Below, piece after piece: positions 33,913 to 41,321 of a stretch of DNA of 41,321 bases. Positions within the stretch are counted from its first letter, which is position 1, and every line of letters begins with the position of its first letter. The position numbers and the translations under genes were made by a program. This stretch comes from Nitrospinota bacterium (GTDB taxonomy: Bacteria; Nitrospinota_A; UBA7883; JACRGQ01). The DNA is taken from contig JACRGQ010000020.1 in assembly GCA_016217735.1 (NCBI GenBank), forward strand, positions 1 through 41,321. Reading direction: 5' to 3'. The notes beneath the pieces were generated by a model. It was not told the DNA's origin. It searched no databases and saw only the letters and a list, made by a program, of their open reading frames with translations.

Positions 33913-34323
33913 TTACTGCGCGGAAAGCGAAATCGCGCTTTTTAAAAGACCCAATTGCTTGTTGGCGATTGTGGTATAGGCGGAGTAGCTGAGATTCATT
34001 TCCGCCACCCGGGTCACTTCCTGATCCAAATCCACCGTGTTGCCATCCAGCCGCGCGGAGGAATCACCTTCCGTCATCGCTGGCATTACTCTCTGAATAT
34101 CGGTTACCGGCAGGTGGCCGGGATGTGTCTTCGCCATTCCCCCCGTGGCCGGGGTTTTGAGCGCTTCGGCCATCGCCCCTTCAAAACTTACCTGTTGGGC
34201 TTTGTAGCCGGGGGTGGCGCTATTGGCGATGTTCGCCGCCGCCCGCGCCGCCGAGGCGGACACAAAGTCGAGCGAGCGGCCCGCCAGTTCCAGCCCGTTT
34301 GTCGTCAAACCAAAAATCTTCAT
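33913..34323 (-). CDS. flgB: Proximal rod protein FlgB
   Basis: A 136-aa rod protein. It contains the axial-protein segment ARAAANIANSATPGYKAQQVSFEGAM and the FlgB-typical GNTVDLDQEVTRVAEMNLSYSAYTTIANKQLGLLKSAI. It is the first gene of the basal-body operon. ATG 34323 lies about 34 bases downstream of the start predicted from the sigma-54 promoter at 34368-34383. Confidence 0.95.
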   Translation of the reverse strand: MKIFGLTTNGLELAGRSLDFVSASAARAAANIANSATPGYKAQQVSFEGAMAEALKTPATGGMAKTHPGHLPVTDIQRVMPAMTEGDSSARLDGNTVDLDQEVTRVAEMNLSYSAYTTIANKQLGLLKSAISLSAQ

Positions 34324-34367
34324 AGCGTCAAAATTCCCAACACATGGTTTTTGCCTAACCTACATAG

Positions 34368-34383
34368 AGCAAAGCCCGTGCCG
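34368..34383 (-). promoter_or_regulatory. Sigma-54 promoter of the flgB operon
   Basis: On the minus strand CGGCACGGGCTTTGCT matches the -24/-12 consensus TGGCACG-N4-TTGCW at all but one conserved base and keeps the GG-N10-GC spacing. The start point is predicted near 34357, ~34 bases before flgB. Confidence 0.85.
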
Positions 34384-34792
34384 TTACCGGCAACCTCTGG
34401 TTTTTCCTGGGTTTTTCTCCCACTCTCTGAAAAACGTCCGGCCAACATCACGCGAACGTCAAAAAACGTAATCCTCAAACATCACTAAGTAAAGGTAAAA
34501 GCAAACCGTGGGCCACAGAATATTGACGCAGTACCCACAGTTGCTGAATCTGCGCCGCCCTCCCAGTTGCTTGGATGAGAGCCCCCGCTCACGTCCCATG
34601 CCCCAGTTCCCACTAAAAACGGCTCATTTCGAAAATGAGAGGATGCGGGCACAGAAAAGATATCCCACCAGCTTTTTTCACCGGGTAAAACCGGGCAGTT
34701 TTTGCCGGATGGGGATGGAATGACCGGGAGTTTTATGCCCCGCAGTGCGGGCGCAAAACAACAACACGCTTACAATCAACACGATGCAACAG

Positions 34793-34808
34793 TGGCACAG
34801 CTCTTGTA
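34793..34808 (+). promoter_or_regulatory. Sigma-54-type promoter of the fliK-flgD-flgE operon
   Basis: TGGCACAGCTCTTGTA matches TGGCACG-N4-TTGCW except at two positions (the seventh base and C to T in the -12 box). The start point is expected near 34819, ~32 bases before the fliK ATG. Confidence 0.75.
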
Positions 34809-34850
34809 TTTTTGACTCGGTGAACAGGAAGAAAAACTTTAGAGGAAAAT

Positions 34851-36479
34851 ATGAAAGTTGAAGCGAAGAAGGCGATAGACACTGCCCAGGCAACGGGGAC
34901 TGGCGCGATGGCGGTTATGGCGGGAGCATTCGGACCGGTGAGCACCGGCGCGTTTGCCACCTTGCTCAACGCCTTCACCGCCAGCGACACGAAACAGGCC
35001 GCCCTGCGGCCTGCCGGTTCCACTTCCACACATAAGACGGTTACCGCGTCCTCCACCGCGTCAAACGCAAAAGCGCATGCGGCAAAAGAAGCCGCCCAGA
35101 AACCGGCCAATCCGCCGGCGAAGGCGGACACCGCCGCCGCGGCCGCGAAAGCGGCGGGCAACGAATCCCACGAATCGAATGAAAACGACGCCGACGCGGA
35201 CAACACCGCGCACACCGCCAAGCAGGCCGCCACGGCACAGCAGCCCAAGCAGGGAGCGGATAAAACGCAACAGCCGGTGAAGATGGAAGACGTCATTAAA
35301 TCGCTGAACCTCGACGACCAGCAGGTGCAACAGCTTGCCCAGGCGCTTAACATCAGCGTCAACGAACTTAAGCAGATGCAGGTATCCGTCACGGCGGATC
35401 AGGGTGGCGCGCCGCAACTGACGGCCCTCATGGCGGGCGGCAAGGAACAGAACCTCGCCACGATGCTCGGCATGAACGCCACCGGCGGCAACGCCGTTAC
35501 GGCGCAAGCGGTTATGGATAAAATCGCCGGCGTGCTGAAACTGGATAACAGTCAAAAACAGGATTTTTTCGCCCAACTCAATATTTCTTCCGTTTCTTTC
35601 AATGACGCCAAAACCTCCGATAACACCGCGGCGCCCAAAAACGCCAATATCGCCAAGCAGTCCGGCCAAACCCAGCCCAGCGGCTCCCCGGCCGCCGATA
35701 TGGGCAAGGCCGCCGTGCAGGATGCCGCGCAAAACCACGCGCAATCCGATAACGGCGGCAACAAAGGGAACTCCTTCAATGGTCAGGCAAATGCCCAGAT
35801 AACGGCCGCCGCGCAGCAAAACGAAACCGCGGCCGACGCGGCCCAAAAAACCGATTTCAACGCCGCGCTGGGCATGGCGGGCGAAACCGCCGGCGCCGCC
35901 GCGCAGGGAACGAAAACCGACGCGGCCCCAAAAGCCGACTTCAGCGCCGCGCCGGGCAAAGCGGGCGAAACCGCCGGCGCCAACGCCGCGCACGGAACGA
36001 AGGCCGAAGCGGCCCACGCCGCCGCGCAAACGCAGGCGGCGGAAACGGCAAAGCCCAACGCCAAGGTCATGAACCAGATCGTGGAAAAGGCGAGCATTCT
36101 CCAGTTCCCCAACTCCACGCAGACCAAAATCAGCCTGAACCCCAAAGAACTCGGCAACGTGGACATCAAGCTGACGATGCACGACTCATCCGTGACGGCG
36201 AGCATCCTGGTGGAAAACCACGCCGTCAAGCAGGTGGTGGAGCAGAACCTCGACCAGCTCAAGGACGTGCTGCGCCAACAGGGAATCACCGTGGACAAAA
36301 TGCAGGTCTCCGTCGATCAGCGGAACAGCGGCAATTCGCAAAACCCGAACCAGTCCCAATGGGAAGCGGCGGCAAAGACCCCCTTCACCGGCACCGCTCC
36401 GCGCGCGGCGGAACCGGCGGTAAACATCCCGTCCATGCGCCGCCCGGCCGGCGGTCACCGGATCAGCCTCACGGCATAG
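34851..36479 (+). CDS. fliK: Flagellar hook-length control protein FliK
   Basis: A 542-aa FliK, the secreted ruler that measures hook length and switches export specificity. The long N-terminal/middle region is Ala/Lys/Gln-rich and low in complexity, as usual for the ruler part. The C-terminal domain (about 405-500) has the conserved hook-length-control fold: TKISLNPKELGNVDIKLTMHDSSVTASILVENHAVKQVVEQNLDQLKDVLRQQGI in four short motifs (LNPKELG, VDIKL, LDQLKDVLRQQGI, VDKMQVSV). A tandem 28-29-aa repeat lies at 35835-36005. AGAGGA precedes ATG 34851. It is the first gene of the hook operon, 10 bases before flgD. Confidence 0.9.
   Translation: MKVEAKKAIDTAQATGTGAMAVMAGAFGPVSTGAFATLLNAFTASDTKQAALRPAGSTSTHKTVTASSTASNAKAHAAKEAAQKPANPPAKADTAAAAAKAAGNESHESNENDADADNTAHTAKQAATAQQPKQGADKTQQPVKMEDVIKSLNLDDQQVQQLAQALNISVNELKQMQVSVTADQGGAPQLTALMAGGKEQNLATMLGMNATGGNAVTAQAVMDKIAGVLKLDNSQKQDFFAQLNISSVSFNDAKTSDNTAAPKNANIAKQSGQTQPSGSPAADMGKAAVQDAAQNHAQSDNGGNKGNSFNGQANAQITAAAQQNETAADAAQKTDFNAALGMAGETAGAAAQGTKTDAAPKADFSAAPGKAGETAGANAAHGTKAEAAHAAAQTQAAETAKPNAKVMNQIVEKASILQFPNSTQTKISLNPKELGNVDIKLTMHDSSVTASILVENHAVKQVVEQNLDQLKDVLRQQGITVDKMQVSVDQRNSGNSQNPNQSQWEAAAKTPFTGTAPRAAEPAVNIPSMRRPAGGHRISLTA
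35835..36005 (+). repeat. Tandem repeat within fliK
   Basis: Two imperfect copies, 35835-35918 (84 nt) and 35919-36005 (87 nt), encode TDFNAALGMAGETAGAAAQG and ADFSAAPGKAGETAGANAAHG with flanking residues. They are in frame and lie in the low-complexity ruler part, so copy number could alter FliK length. Confidence 0.85.
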
Positions 36480-36489
36480 GAGAAAAACC

Positions 36490-37236
36490 ATGATAGTAAG
36501 TTCAAGCGCCGAAACCTCCGCAACCCCGCAAAAAGCGTCGAACGGAAGCCTGCTTCCGGGCGGTTCGGCGAACGGCGCCTCCGCCGGCACCTTAAGCAAA
36601 GACCAGTTCCTGAAGCTGCTCATCGAGCAGCTCAAGCACCAGGACCCGCTCTCGCCGATGCAGAACACGGAATTCACCTCGCAGATGGCGCAGTTCAGCC
36701 AGCTCGAACAGCTCTACAACGTGAACAGCAATCTGGGCATCATGACGCAGGCGAGCATCTCCGCGAACAACGCCCAGGCGCTCGGCCTGATCGGCAAAGA
36801 AGTGAAAGCGGCCGGCAACAGCGTCGACGTCTCTGGCGGTAAAGCGAGCGCGCTGACCTTCAGCCTGCCGGAAAACGCCTCGGATACCTCCATCTCGATC
36901 AGCGACGCGAAGGGCAACGTGGTCGCCACCATCGACGCCGGCGCGAAGGACAGCGGCGACAACTCGGTGACGTGGGACGGCCGCGACGCGGCGGGCGAAC
37001 CGGTGGCCTCGGGCACCTACACCTTCAGCGTGAACGCGCAGAACCTCACCGGCGACAACATCCCCGCCACCACGTTCATGCGGGGCATCGTGAAATCCGT
37101 GAGCATACAAAACGGCGTTTCATACCTGAACCTCGGCAACACCAAGATACAGTTAGGCGACGTCATGGAGGTAAGCCAGCCAGGCACGGCGGCAACCTCC
37201 CCGGCGGTAAAAAACAAGGGCATTTTTCTTAACTAA
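36490..37236 (+). CDS. flgD: Flagellar hook assembly scaffold FlgD
   Basis: A 248-aa FlgD, the hook cap that is needed for FlgE polymerisation and lost afterwards. The conserved N-terminal export/cap segment is LSKDQFLKLLIEQLKHQDPLSPMQNTEFTSQMAQFSQLEQL. The C-terminal half is a FlgD Ig/Tudor-like domain (DAKGNVVATIDAG, VTWDGRDAAGEPVASGTYTF). AGGAG precedes ATG 36490. It lies 10 bases after fliK and 15 bases before flgE. Confidence 0.95.
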   Translation: MIVSSSAETSATPQKASNGSLLPGGSANGASAGTLSKDQFLKLLIEQLKHQDPLSPMQNTEFTSQMAQFSQLEQLYNVNSNLGIMTQASISANNAQALGLIGKEVKAAGNSVDVSGGKASALTFSLPENASDTSISISDAKGNVVATIDAGAKDSGDNSVTWDGRDAAGEPVASGTYTFSVNAQNLTGDNIPATTFMRGIVKSVSIQNGVSYLNLGNTKIQLGDVMEVSQPGTAATSPAVKNKGIFLN

Positions 37237-37246
37237 ACAAGGAGGC
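37235..37246 (+). promoter_or_regulatory. Extended ribosome-binding site of flgE
   Basis: AAACAAGGAGGC contains a full AAGGAGG Shine-Dalgarno 6-8 bases before ATG 37252. It is noted because its exact reverse complement, GCCTCCTTGTTT, occurs twice downstream of flgE (38647-38658 and 38796-38807). Confidence 0.9.
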
Positions 37247-37251
37247 TGGTC

Positions 37252-38499
37252 ATGAGTTTAAACAGTGCAATGTATTCCGGGGTCAGCGGCATAATGACGC
37301 TCGGCAACGCGATGAACGTGACGGGCGACAACATCGCCAACGTCAACACCGTCGGCTACAAAGGGAGCCGCACGGTGTTTTCGGACATCCTCTCCAACTC
37401 GATTTCAAACGGATCCACCACCATGCAGATGGGGCGCGGCACATTCCTGTCCGGCGTCACCCCCTCCTGGGCGCAGGGATCCTTTGAAAGCACCGCCAAC
37501 GCCACCGACATGGCGATACAGGGCTCCGGCTTCTTCGTGGTGAAAGACCAGGCCAATAGCGCCTCATACTTCACCCGGGCCGGCCAGTTCTCCCTGAACA
37601 ACCAGGGGCAACTGGTGAACGGCAGCGACATGGTGGTGCAGGGCTACCAGGTGACCAGCACCCTCAACGGCGTGGTGAACACCACCGGCCAAATCAGCAA
37701 CATCAACATCGGCGGCGTGCAGTCGGTGCCCAAAGCCACCACGCAGTTCCGCATCGGCGCGAACCTCAACGCCTCCGCCAGCGCCGGCGCCACCTTCAGC
37801 ACCAGCTTCGACGTGTACAACAACCTCGGCGGCCGCGTGACGCTCACCTACAGCTTCACCAAGAGCGCCGTCACGCCGCTTTCCTGGGACTACACGGTCG
37901 CCGCCTCCTCCGGCACCATCAGCGCCGGCGGCACCGGCACCATGACGTTCGACTCCGCCGGGCAGATGGTAACACCGGCGGCCAACCCGGCCCTTTCGAT
38001 CAGCGGCTTCCCGACCGGCGCCGCGCCGCTTACGATGACCTGGGCGCTCTATAACCCGGCGACCACCGCGCTGTACGGCGACATCACCAGCTATAGCGCC
38101 GGATCAACGACCACATCGATAATCCAGGACGGCTATTCGACCGGCACACTGAAGGGGCTTTCGGTCGACGGCAAGGGGGTCATCAGCGGCCTCTTCTCCA
38201 ACGGCCAGACGCAGGCGCTCTACCAGTTGGCGATGGCCGACTTCCCCAGCCCCTGGGGCCTAAGCCGCCAGGGGGGCAGCCTCTACGCCGAAAGCATGCA
38301 GTCCGGCCAGCCGCTCTACGGCACCGCCGGCGCGGGCGGCCTGGGGACGATCCTCGGCAGTTCGCTGGAACTCTCCAACGTCGACCTCGCCAGCGAGTTC
38401 GTCAAGATGATCCAGAACCAGCGCGGCTACCAGGCAAACTCCCGCATCATCACCACGGTCGACGAAATGATGACGGAAGCGGTGAATCTGAAACGGTAA
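37252..38499 (+). CDS. flgE: Flagellar hook protein FlgE
   Basis: A 415-aa hook protein. The N-terminal axial motif is MYSGVSGIMTLGNAMNVTGDNIANVNTVGYKGSR; the FlgE-typical FFVVKDQ, YFTRAGQFSLNNQGQLVNGSD and VQGYQ follow. The hypervariable Gly/Ser/Thr-rich centre forms the exposed D2 region. The C-terminal end is ELSNVDLASEFVKMIQNQRGYQANSRIITTVDEMMTEAVNLKR. Length and ends are complete. It is the last recognised gene of the fliK-flgD-flgE operon, and its strong Shine-Dalgarno matches the high demand for hook subunits. Confidence 0.96.
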   Translation: MSLNSAMYSGVSGIMTLGNAMNVTGDNIANVNTVGYKGSRTVFSDILSNSISNGSTTMQMGRGTFLSGVTPSWAQGSFESTANATDMAIQGSGFFVVKDQANSASYFTRAGQFSLNNQGQLVNGSDMVVQGYQVTSTLNGVVNTTGQISNINIGGVQSVPKATTQFRIGANLNASASAGATFSTSFDVYNNLGGRVTLTYSFTKSAVTPLSWDYTVAASSGTISAGGTGTMTFDSAGQMVTPAANPALSISGFPTGAAPLTMTWALYNPATTALYGDITSYSAGSTTTSIIQDGYSTGTLKGLSVDGKGVISGLFSNGQTQALYQLAMADFPSPWGLSRQGGSLYAESMQSGQPLYGTAGAGGLGTILGSSLELSNVDLASEFVKMIQNQRGYQANSRIITTVDEMMTEAVNLKR

Positions 38500-38502
38500 G
38501 CG

Positions 38503-38608
38503 GATGACATGATTCCCGCCGGAACTCCGGCGGGGACATGAAGCAGGGGAAACCCGGAAAGTTTTAAGGAAAAAGCCTCTGGATGCCGGGTCAAGCCCGG
38601 CAATGACA
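38503..38608. repeat. REP-like paired hairpins
   Basis: The first hairpin is CCCGCCGGA-AC-TCCGGCGGG (38515-38534). The second is GCCGGGTCAAGCCCGGC, ending CAATGACA. Outer ends ATGACAT and ATGACA are of the type seen in dispersed intergenic GTCATTCCCGC/TGCCGGGTCAAGCCCGGCA elements of many genomes. The first hairpin may also serve as the flgE transcript end. Confidence 0.6.
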
Positions 38609-38630
38609 ATGCAAGTAAGGAGTGTTAGGA

Positions 38631-38722
38631 CGGTCAAACATTTTTCGCCTCCTTGTTTCGACCGACGCCTTTAAACACTGCGTCCTGTTCAACCCCCGCC
38701 GGGCCTAACCCCCCGGCGGGGG
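38631..38722 (+). ncRNA. Candidate structured RNA element, copy 1
   Basis: Three parts are visible. First, a hairpin with stem CGGTC (38631-38635) / GACCG (38660-38664) and a loop containing TTTTCGCCTCCTTGTTT (38642-38658), an anti-Shine-Dalgarno sequence. Second, GACGC/GCGTC arms around CTTTAAACACT, ending in ACTGCGTCC (38677-38685). Third, a 10-bp GC hairpin CCCCCGCCGG/CCGGCGGGGG (38693-38702 / 38713-38722) with GCCTAA in the loop. The same order recurs at copy 2 with different stem sequences. There is no U-run after the last stem, so it is not a standard terminator. The strand is inferred; no promoter was identified. Confidence 0.5.
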
Positions 38723-38785
38723 CATAAAATGAACGTGCGGAAATTTAGGGATACGAGTTTAGAAATTAGAAGTTAAAGAGGGGAA

Positions 38786-38868
38786 CGCCGTTTTCGCCTC
38801 CTTGTTTAGACGGCGCGTATCCTTTTGACTGCGTCCAAAAGCCCGGCCGGCCGCCTAACCGGCCGGGC
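38786..38868 (+). ncRNA. Candidate structured RNA element, copy 2
   Basis: Same design as copy 1, ~150 bases on. The stem CGCCGT (38786-38791) / ACGGCG (38810-38815) closes a loop with the identical CGCCTCCTTGTTT core (the 17-nt block TTTTCGCCTCCTTGTTT is 38791-38807). ACTGCGTCC follows at 38828-38836. A 10-bp hairpin GCCCGGCCGG/CCGGCCGGGC (38841-38850 / 38859-38868) has the loop CCGCCTAA. Loops and single-stranded motifs are kept while stem sequences differ, as expected for selected RNA structure. On the opposite strand the block would be a ribosome-binding site, but no start codon follows it here. Confidence 0.5.
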
Positions 38869-38896
38869 GCCCAAATCCCCCCTTCCCTTCCCTTTC

Positions 38897-38949
38897 CCGG
38901 CGGGTACGCACTCTCAGATACAAGTGTGTACATCATGCCGGAGGCATGA
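38897..38949. repeat. Palindromic repeat next to the transposase remnant
   Basis: CCCGGCGGGTAC leads into an imperfect GTACGCAC...GTGTGTAC inverted repeat and then a TCATGCC-GGA-GGCATGA hairpin (38933-38949). The GGGTAC start and nested hairpins recall the element at 16813-16904. Confidence 0.45.
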
Positions 38950-39781: not shown

Positions 39782-41321
39782 CTATCCCATTGAAGCATTA
39801 ATGATCTCTAACACGTGCTCTAAATACCGCCCCTCTGTAGCAGCGGTTGATTGCCTCAAATAGCCGGGGATACATTCAAGAAATTCAGATTTGCTTGTAG
39901 GTTTCTTCTCTAAAAACACATCCAGCATTGCTGGCCGAAGTAATCGTTGATTCTCGGGAGTATTTGGCAATTCTCTCTGAATGACCTCCCTATCATACTT
40001 AACTAACCTTTCCCGAAGCCCCTTATTTTCCGATATAAACTTTTCGATAGCGGACTCCTGCTGGTCAACCTCATCGACTATTTGTTTTATTTCCTTAGCT
40101 TCTGATTCATATTTCTGCTCAAATCCTTTTACGTTTTCCGTTCTTAGTGAGCTTAACTCCCGAATGATCGGCCTAAGCTCATCGTGTGGATTCCTAAACC
40201 AATCAGTCGACCATATCCGGCGTATCCGCCATCCGAGGCGCTCCAAGATTGTTTGCCGCAGTCGGTCACGATCGCGCGTTGATTTTGCCGAATGATAGGT
40301 GGCACCGTCGCACTCGATCCCCATTAAAAATCGCCCTGAATTGCCAGGGTCAACCACTGCTATATCTATAAAAAAGCCAGCTACACCAACCTGCGGGATG
40401 CATTCATACCCCTTATTGCGCAACGCTGCCATAACCGCAATTTCGAAATCACTGTCCGGCGCGCGCCCACTCTCTCGTTCTGTTCTATAAAGCATGCCCG
40501 TCTCGCAATAGGCTATAAAATCACGAAGTGCCTGTACGCCACGGTTAGCCGTCGAAGCGACAATAATGTCTTTTGATTCCATAGAGCTAAAAATATGCAT
40601 GCGCTTTTTCGATCGAGTAAATAATACGTTCAAGCGACGCCACCCAACTCCCGAATTAATTGGGCCAAAACGTTGGAAAACCTTTCCGCGAGGTTCTTGA
40701 GGGCCATAGGTCATTGAAATAAAGATCACATCACGTTCATCGCCTTGAACATTTTCAAGGTTCTTAATAAAAAGGGATTCATCTCTTTGAGAATCTTTTT
40801 CCAGGCTCGATTGAAATACCTCATCATCCTTCGCCAGCATTTCAATAGCACTTTCAATCTGAAGGCGCTGCTCAGCGTTCATTGCTACCACGCCCAAAGA
40901 CTCTTCCGGCCGATGCTTAAAATGCTCTCGAACAGCCTCTGAAATGATTTTAGCTTCTTCCATATTACGCCTGTTAATAAAGCAGCCGCGAGACACCCTT
41001 GTATATCTGATGCCATAGCTATCAGTTGCCTTATGGGGCGATGGAAATAGCACTAAATCACCCTCATAAAAAGAATGATTCGAAAACGCAATTAAGCTTT
41101 CGTGTTGCGATCGGTAATGCCAACGAAGCCGTCTAGCTGGGAACATGGGCAACGTAGTGTCCAGAATACTTTCAGATTCCTCAATAGTTGTTGGATCGGC
41201 GGCGTCACCATCAACAACGCGATCAAAAAAGCTTGTTGGCGGCAACTGCTTTGAATCACCGACAACCACCAACTGCTTGCCACGCGCAATCGCTCCTAAC
41301 GCGTCCTCTGGCTTGATCTGA
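39782..41321 (-). CDS. SF1 helicase with C-terminal Vsr/DUF559-like nuclease (partial)
   Basis: The C-terminal part (513 codons) of a large protein whose N-terminus lies beyond the right edge; the frame is open to base 41321. Helicase motifs in order: VVVGDSKQLPP (III), WHYRSQHESLI (IV), ENVQGDERDVIFIS (V) and RLNVLFTRSKKRM (VI). A PD-(D/E)XK nuclease of the Vsr/DUF559 type follows: FFIDIAVVDP, GIECDGATYH, then RDRLRQTILERLGWRIRRIWSTDW. A coiled coil and a helical tail end the protein. This layout is known from DUF4011-helicase-Vsr anti-phage proteins; the DUF4011 part cannot be seen here. Base composition is clearly more AT-rich than the rest of the window, consistent with transfer. Confidence 0.85.
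   Translation of the reverse strand, partial: QIKPEDALGAIARGKQLVVVGDSKQLPPTSFFDRVVDGDAADPTTIEESESILDTTLPMFPARRLRWHYRSQHESLIAFSNHSFYEGDLVLFPSPHKATDSYGIRYTRVSRGCFINRRNMEEAKIISEAVREHFKHRPEESLGVVAMNAEQRLQIESAIEMLAKDDEVFQSSLEKDSQRDESLFIKNLENVQGDERDVIFISMTYGPQEPRGKVFQRFGPINSGVGWRRLNVLFTRSKKRMHIFSSMESKDIIVASTANRGVQALRDFIAYCETGMLYRTERESGRAPDSDFEIAVMAALRNKGYECIPQVGVAGFFIDIAVVDPGNSGRFLMGIECDGATYHSAKSTRDRDRLRQTILERLGWRIRRIWSTDWFRNPHDELRPIIRELSSLRTENVKGFEQKYESEAKEIKQIVDEVDQQESAIEKFISENKGLRERLVKYDREVIQRELPNTPENQRLLRPAMLDVFLEKKPTSKSEFLECIPGYLRQSTAATEGRYLEHVLEIINASMG

Follow-up and report, generated by a model that had tools for sequence, protein, structure and literature searches.

Duplicated anti-Shine-Dalgarno hairpins behind the flagellar hook gene of Nitrospinota: a candidate RNA repressor of hook protein and flagellin synthesis

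The window considered here, the whole 41,321-nucleotide stretch of DNA that was analysed, comes from a Nitrospinota MAG and carries the flagellar hook gene flgE, whose product is 88% identical to the closest named FlgE, that of 'Nitrospinales bacterium nzgw266'. An original prediction, made from the letters alone, had placed two structured RNA-like elements 3' of flgE, and the upstream gene is indeed assigned to FlgE by both Pfam and NCBIfam. The features under discussion are as follows, R1 being the covariance model described below.

37235..37246, plus strand: Shine-Dalgarno (SD) region of flgE, AAACAAGGAGGC, predicted to pair with unit 1 over 12 nt and, when CT at 37233-37234 is included, with unit 2 over 14 nt
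37252..38499, plus strand: flgE, encoding the flagellar hook protein; it closes the series fliK-flgD-flgE and hosts the element
38629..38725, plus strand: unit 1, 97 nt, composed of anti-SD hairpin, linker and GC hairpin; R1 score 116 bits (training sequence)
38631..38664, plus strand: hairpin 1 of unit 1, stem CGGTC (38631-38635) with GACCG (38660-38664), loop containing CGCCTCCTTG
38677..38692, plus strand: linker of unit 1, ACTGCGTCCTGTTCAA
38693..38722, plus strand: GC hairpin of unit 1, 11 bp, CCCCCGCCGGG (38693-38703) with CCCGGCGGGGG (38712-38722); terminator-like, without a U tract
38784..38875, plus strand: unit 2, composed of anti-SD hairpin, linker and GC hairpin; R1 score 27.5 bits, E 0.003 in the whole genome
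38786..38815, plus strand: hairpin 1 of unit 2, stem CGCCGT (38786-38791) with ACGGCG (38810-38815), loop containing CGCCTCCTTGTTTAG
38828..38836, plus strand: linker of unit 2, ACTGCGTCC
38841..38868, plus strand: GC hairpin of unit 2, 10 bp, GCCCGGCCGG (38841-38850) with CCGGCCGGGC (38859-38868); without a U tract

The claimed arrangement of two units about 150 nt apart is confirmed: the 17-nt block TTTTCGCCTCCTTGTTT (38642-38658 and 38791-38807) recurs at an offset of 149 nt, ACTGCGTCC occurs in both units (38677-38685 and 38828-38836), and each unit runs from a hairpin with a CCUCCUU loop through a linker to a GC hairpin of 10-11 bp. The CCTGTTC of the unit 1 linker stands at the equivalent position in the related genomes G004, G006, G007 and G008. 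GCCTAA, on the other hand, which had been described as the loop shared by the GC hairpins, is not conserved, with GATTAA or GGGAAA taking its place in relatives, and an integron attC reading of GCCTAAC was likewise discarded, the boxes facing the wrong way on inspection. The interval between flgE and unit 1 contains an additional GC hairpin (38513-38535), which counts against the explanation that we favour below. So does a consensus scan of the region, which gave neither a sigma-70-like promoter nor a U-tailed terminator, and a sigma-54 promoter was dropped as a candidate after a strict GG-N10-GC pattern scan of 34300-38900 gave none. Near the contig end, a large open reading frame on the minus strand (39782-41272) encodes AAA_12 helicase and MTES_1575 nuclease domains, possibly a defence or DNA-repair protein.

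Folding of the plus strand gives z-scores of -5.5 for unit 1 and -3.0 for unit 2. The original prediction had also described the anti-SD loop as exposed, and its display is supported: in unit 1 CGCCUCCU has an unpaired probability near 1, providing the accessible seed that characterizes the anti-SD class of sRNAs, and the CCUCC core of unit 2 is mostly free of pairing apart from a weak inner GC pair. The exposure is narrower than had been drawn, since the predicted stem of unit 1 absorbs UUGUUU and leaves CGCCUCCU as the surely exposed part. Stems that differ but still pair had been taken as the product of selection on RNA structure, and the stems closing the C-rich loop do vary (CGGTC/GACCG, CGCCGT/ACGGCG, AGTCT/AGACT, TCTTC/GAAGA and AAGGTAAGGG/CCCTTACTTT), five divergent copies still enclosing the loop. 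On MAFFT alignments, however, RNAalifold detects no both-side changes in stem 1, as the stems of one genus cannot be aligned with those of another, and the covariation argument therefore rests on a shuffle test rather than on alignment. With the motif fixed and the flanks shuffled, the chance of a hairpin at least as stable was 0.037 for unit 1, 0.004 for unit 2, 0.12 for G007, 0.03 for G008 and 0.035 for G004, or about 1e-4 when the five values are combined by Fisher's method.

Conservation is concentrated in the units. Both sister genomes, G002 and G003, carry the pair, and identity to the window reaches 93-94% in unit 1 and 86-88% in unit 2, with flgE DNA at 87-88%, the inter-unit spacer at 41-63%, the stretch from the flgE stop to unit 1 at 38-42% and the 200 nt 3' of unit 2 at 31-39%. 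Outside the genus, a single unit is retained in G007 and G008, its linker reading AAACACTGCGTCCTGTTCA or AAACGCCGCGTCCTGTTCA; in G004 a C-rich-loop hairpin is followed by CCCTGTTCAA and a GC hairpin, and G006 retains CCCTGTTC and the GC hairpin behind a first hairpin that lacks an anti-SD loop. On the minus strand, AAGGAGGCGAAAAATG in unit 1 could be read as a ribosome-binding site and start codon. Its SD-ATG spacing is good within the window's genus, but the frame is not conserved (16 codons in the window's genome, 52 in G003 and 369 in G002, where it is antisense to flgE), no start exists in unit 2 or in G007, and antisense flgE lies downstream, making a minus-strand peptide very improbable.

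A covariance-model search of relatives and of Rfam had been suggested with the original prediction. R1 was built from five unit-1-type sequences, the flgE-linked copies of the window's genome (G000), G002, G003, G007 and G008, which represent three genera and score 57-117 bits, and was searched against 24 genomes from the class and phylum. The top independent matches were unit 2 of G000 (E 0.003), unit 2 of G003 (E 0.03) and a match in G004 (E 0.01), a fourth genus outside the training set, which starts 15 nt past the end of the flgE match. Further copies with altered stems that still enclose the loop are thus present in relatives, an outcome in favour of the original prediction, and R1 relatives occur in four genera of the family, always directly 3' of flgE, with one further genus retaining only part of the element. 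Strong matches were found only after flgE, and there was no other significant match in the 24 genomes; weaker ones away from flgE in G017, G019, G011, G010 and G013 (E 0.02-0.16), lying in or opposite coding DNA in those inspected, were taken as chance. When R1 was restricted to flgE loci, weak matches appeared just downstream of flgE in G011 and G006, hinting that the architecture extends more widely. In G005 and G010, strong hairpins whose loop region includes CCACCTCC or GCACCTCCTCCC stand 3' of flgE (loci L049 and L050) but were missed by the covariance model; anti-SD-like loops after flgE may be more widespread in the phylum.

These searches answer the doubt, raised with the original prediction, that two copies could represent a folded mobile or palindromic repeat. 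The tandem pair would fit a double insertion, but the genome has no further copies, no scattered copies turned up elsewhere, the element keeps the same syntenic site in several genera, and no ends or target duplications were seen; as there is no other significant match in the 24 genomes, we give a mobile repeat practically no weight. The element is a flgE-linked family rather than a scattered repeat, and the computational evidence supports a structured plus-strand RNA that displays an anti-SD loop and is conserved under selection behind flgE in four genera. The earlier remark that no described family was recognised also stands, as Rfam, searched at the gathering score and at E 10, gave nothing above threshold in the window.

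What this analysis newly brings, at the level of sequence, is the complementarity of the loops to the ribosome-binding sites of flgE, over 12-14 nt, and of one flagellin gene, over 11-13 nt. Candidate targets were ranked over 93 initiation regions together with whole-genome pattern searches. The window's genome contains seven copies of the loop complement AAACAAGGAGG, two of them in the units themselves (antisense), two at translation starts and three elsewhere, the two translation starts being those of flgE (37235) and of a flagellin on contig C32 with the SD CTAAACAAGGAGGATGTCATG. In G003 the translation starts with AAACAAGGAGG are likewise confined to flgE and a flagellin, and G002 has one convincing case, flgE; in the window's genome and a sister, an 11-nt match at a translation start is limited to flgE and one flagellin. 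The longest matches among the 93 initiation regions are 14 nt for flgE and 13 nt for the C32 flagellin (unit 2), the next being 10. Cofolding over the same regions puts the flagellin first by far for unit 2, at -25.8 vs -18.4 kcal/mol for the next, but in the window's genome flgE does not rank among the leading targets by this measure, its energies being -11.5 and, with unit 2, -12.8; in G003, against a small background, flgE and flagellin are the best two, at -20.3 and -19.9, with the next at -15.1.

Judged by inspection, the match in other genera shrinks to about 9 nt (G007), 7 nt (G004) and 6 nt (G008). This adds one to three bases to the SD core and hardly exceeds a generic SD, and the extended targets are therefore a feature of the window's genus. 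Within that genus, positions beyond the SD core show no visible covariation with the target, the genomes compared giving too few independent changes. Two other target candidates looked less promising: the complement of the conserved linker, GAACAGGACGC, is with one mismatch about as frequent as in the control and gave no lead, and flgM, considered by analogy with the Campylobacter sRNA CJnc230, has an initiation region (TGATGGAGGTGGCTTACCATG) with only a short, generic SD match.

Two rival explanations deserve mention. The loops could act in cis, as parts of a flgE 3'UTR that pair with the SD of their own mRNA, reducing the translation or the stability of flgE without a separate sRNA, much as in the icaR 3'UTR of Staphylococcus aureus, where a C-rich UCCCCUG motif base-pairs to the SD of its own transcript (PMC3868564), although that precedent for 3'-end autoregulation involves a single motif and an unrelated gene. 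It would account for flgE itself having the longest complementarity of the 93 initiation regions, but it leaves unexplained an equally specific flagellin SD match on another contig, in two species, and the flgE SD sits inside the operon; we consider a purely cis-acting 3'UTR unlikely. Next in order of probability, and itself unlikely, the units could be transcription terminators together with 3'UTR hairpins of a generic CU-rich kind, which would protect the flgE mRNA or set its end, the resemblance to an anti-SD having no regulatory meaning. GC hairpins do follow flgE in many Nitrospinota, and G006 keeps its linker and GC hairpin even with no anti-SD loop in hairpin 1. Against this, U tracts are absent, the most constant parts within the genus are the loop and linker and not the stems, two complete units are maintained, and among translation starts the 11-nt match picks only flagellar genes.

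We regard it as on balance probable that the tandem homologous units at the 3' end of the flgE transcript constitute one or more sRNAs, or an active 3'UTR, blocking translation of flgE and a flagellin. Each unit would fold into a hairpin displaying the anti-SD CGCCUCCUU, and the strong GC hairpin after the linker probably defines or protects the 3' end. We infer that the RNA is transcribed and processed, preferably being freed as one or two sRNAs or else acting within the flgE 3'UTR, and that in the cell it would most likely pair with the ribosome-binding sites of flgE and one flagellin and repress their translation, such that transcription of the hook gene would restrain the synthesis of both hook protein and flagellin. 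A search with Pfam PF17209 gave no Hfq homologue in the 11 family genomes G000-G010 but was positive in control genomes, and the proposed pairing would therefore be Hfq-independent or use another protein. Hfq-independent sRNAs exist.

The closest analogue is CJnc230/FlmE of Campylobacter jejuni, an RNA of 88-98 nt with two stem-loops that is found behind flgE in every species having it, is processed from the flgE mRNA, carries the putative anti-SD motif CCUU and, by a proven anti-SD mechanism, represses flgM and Cj1387c via their ribosome-binding sites (PMC11187230). Our element resembles it in lying directly 3' of flgE, in the size and two-stem-loop build of its units, in its anti-SD motif and in its predicted flagellar targets. 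It differs in that the anti-SD of CJnc230/FlmE is a single-stranded stretch between stem-loops, whereas here it occupies the loop of the first hairpin, with CUGCGUCC in the linker; CJnc230/FlmE is also single-copy while the Nitrospinota element is duplicated, its validated targets are flgM and Cj1387c rather than the flgE and flagellin predicted here (flgM having no notable match), and it belongs to a different phylum, with no evidence of homology.

Repeated hairpins with an anti-SD loop (CCUCCUCCC) on differing stems are also known from the alpha-r14/NfeR1 ('cuckoo') sRNAs of Rhizobiales (RF02344; PMC10746234), which similarly block ribosome-binding sites but have three motifs, belong to Alphaproteobacteria and nitrogen metabolism, and have no flgE linkage. 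RF02344 is the best Rfam match, yet its 21.4 bits (E 0.1 in 801 bases) stay far below the gathering score, 58.8, and short of membership, and instead of an identical CCUCCUCCC unpaired in each hairpin the motif here is CGCCUCCUUGUUU. A precedent for trans-autoregulation from a 3' end, in unrelated genes, is given by OppZ and CarZ of Vibrio cholerae, described as RNase E-processed sRNAs from operon 3' ends that pair with their own transcript and stop its translation, in a study with Hfq as a keyword (PMC7398697). The sigma-28-dependent, UTR-derived sRNAs MotR, FliX, FlgO and UhpU of Escherichia coli are reported to control flagellar synthesis, MotR and FliX pairing within coding sequences, with Hfq again a keyword and with no flgE linkage or anti-SD repeat in the abstract (PMC10578931). 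The element is not a member of any named family.

We tentatively propose, with somewhat less confidence than in the mechanism itself, an undescribed flgE-linked RNA family of Nitrospinota, of separate origin from CJnc230, whose duplicated anti-SD hairpins, derived from the hook-gene transcript, would repress hook protein and flagellin in genomes with no detectable Hfq. If this is true, two unrelated phyla, Campylobacterota and Nitrospinota, each gave rise to anti-SD RNAs behind the hook gene, the 3' end of that gene would be a recurrent site of flagellar-checkpoint RNAs in distant phyla, and a general post-transcriptional checkpoint in flagellar assembly would be indicated. The open-access papers searched included no sRNA study of Nitrospinota, and the element offers a specific regulatory-RNA candidate for the phylum with a directly testable prediction.

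The flagellin genes themselves are not uniform. The window's genome has at least three, on contigs C32, C40 and C59, and the extended site CTAAACAAGGAGG is present only in the C32 copy, the ribosome-binding sites of the C40 and C59 copies reading CAAGGAGGATACGATCATG. In addition, an exact 12-mer, GCCTCCTTGTTT, lies between ispD and another, convergent flagellin gene, just beyond the GC hairpin of the latter (G000 C59:23904-23917, locus L094; G001 C62:8885). In the direction of the flagellin gene it reads AAACAAGGAGGC, which is SD-like and complementary to the loops of the flgE element, and it is possibly a sponge, or a product of chance.
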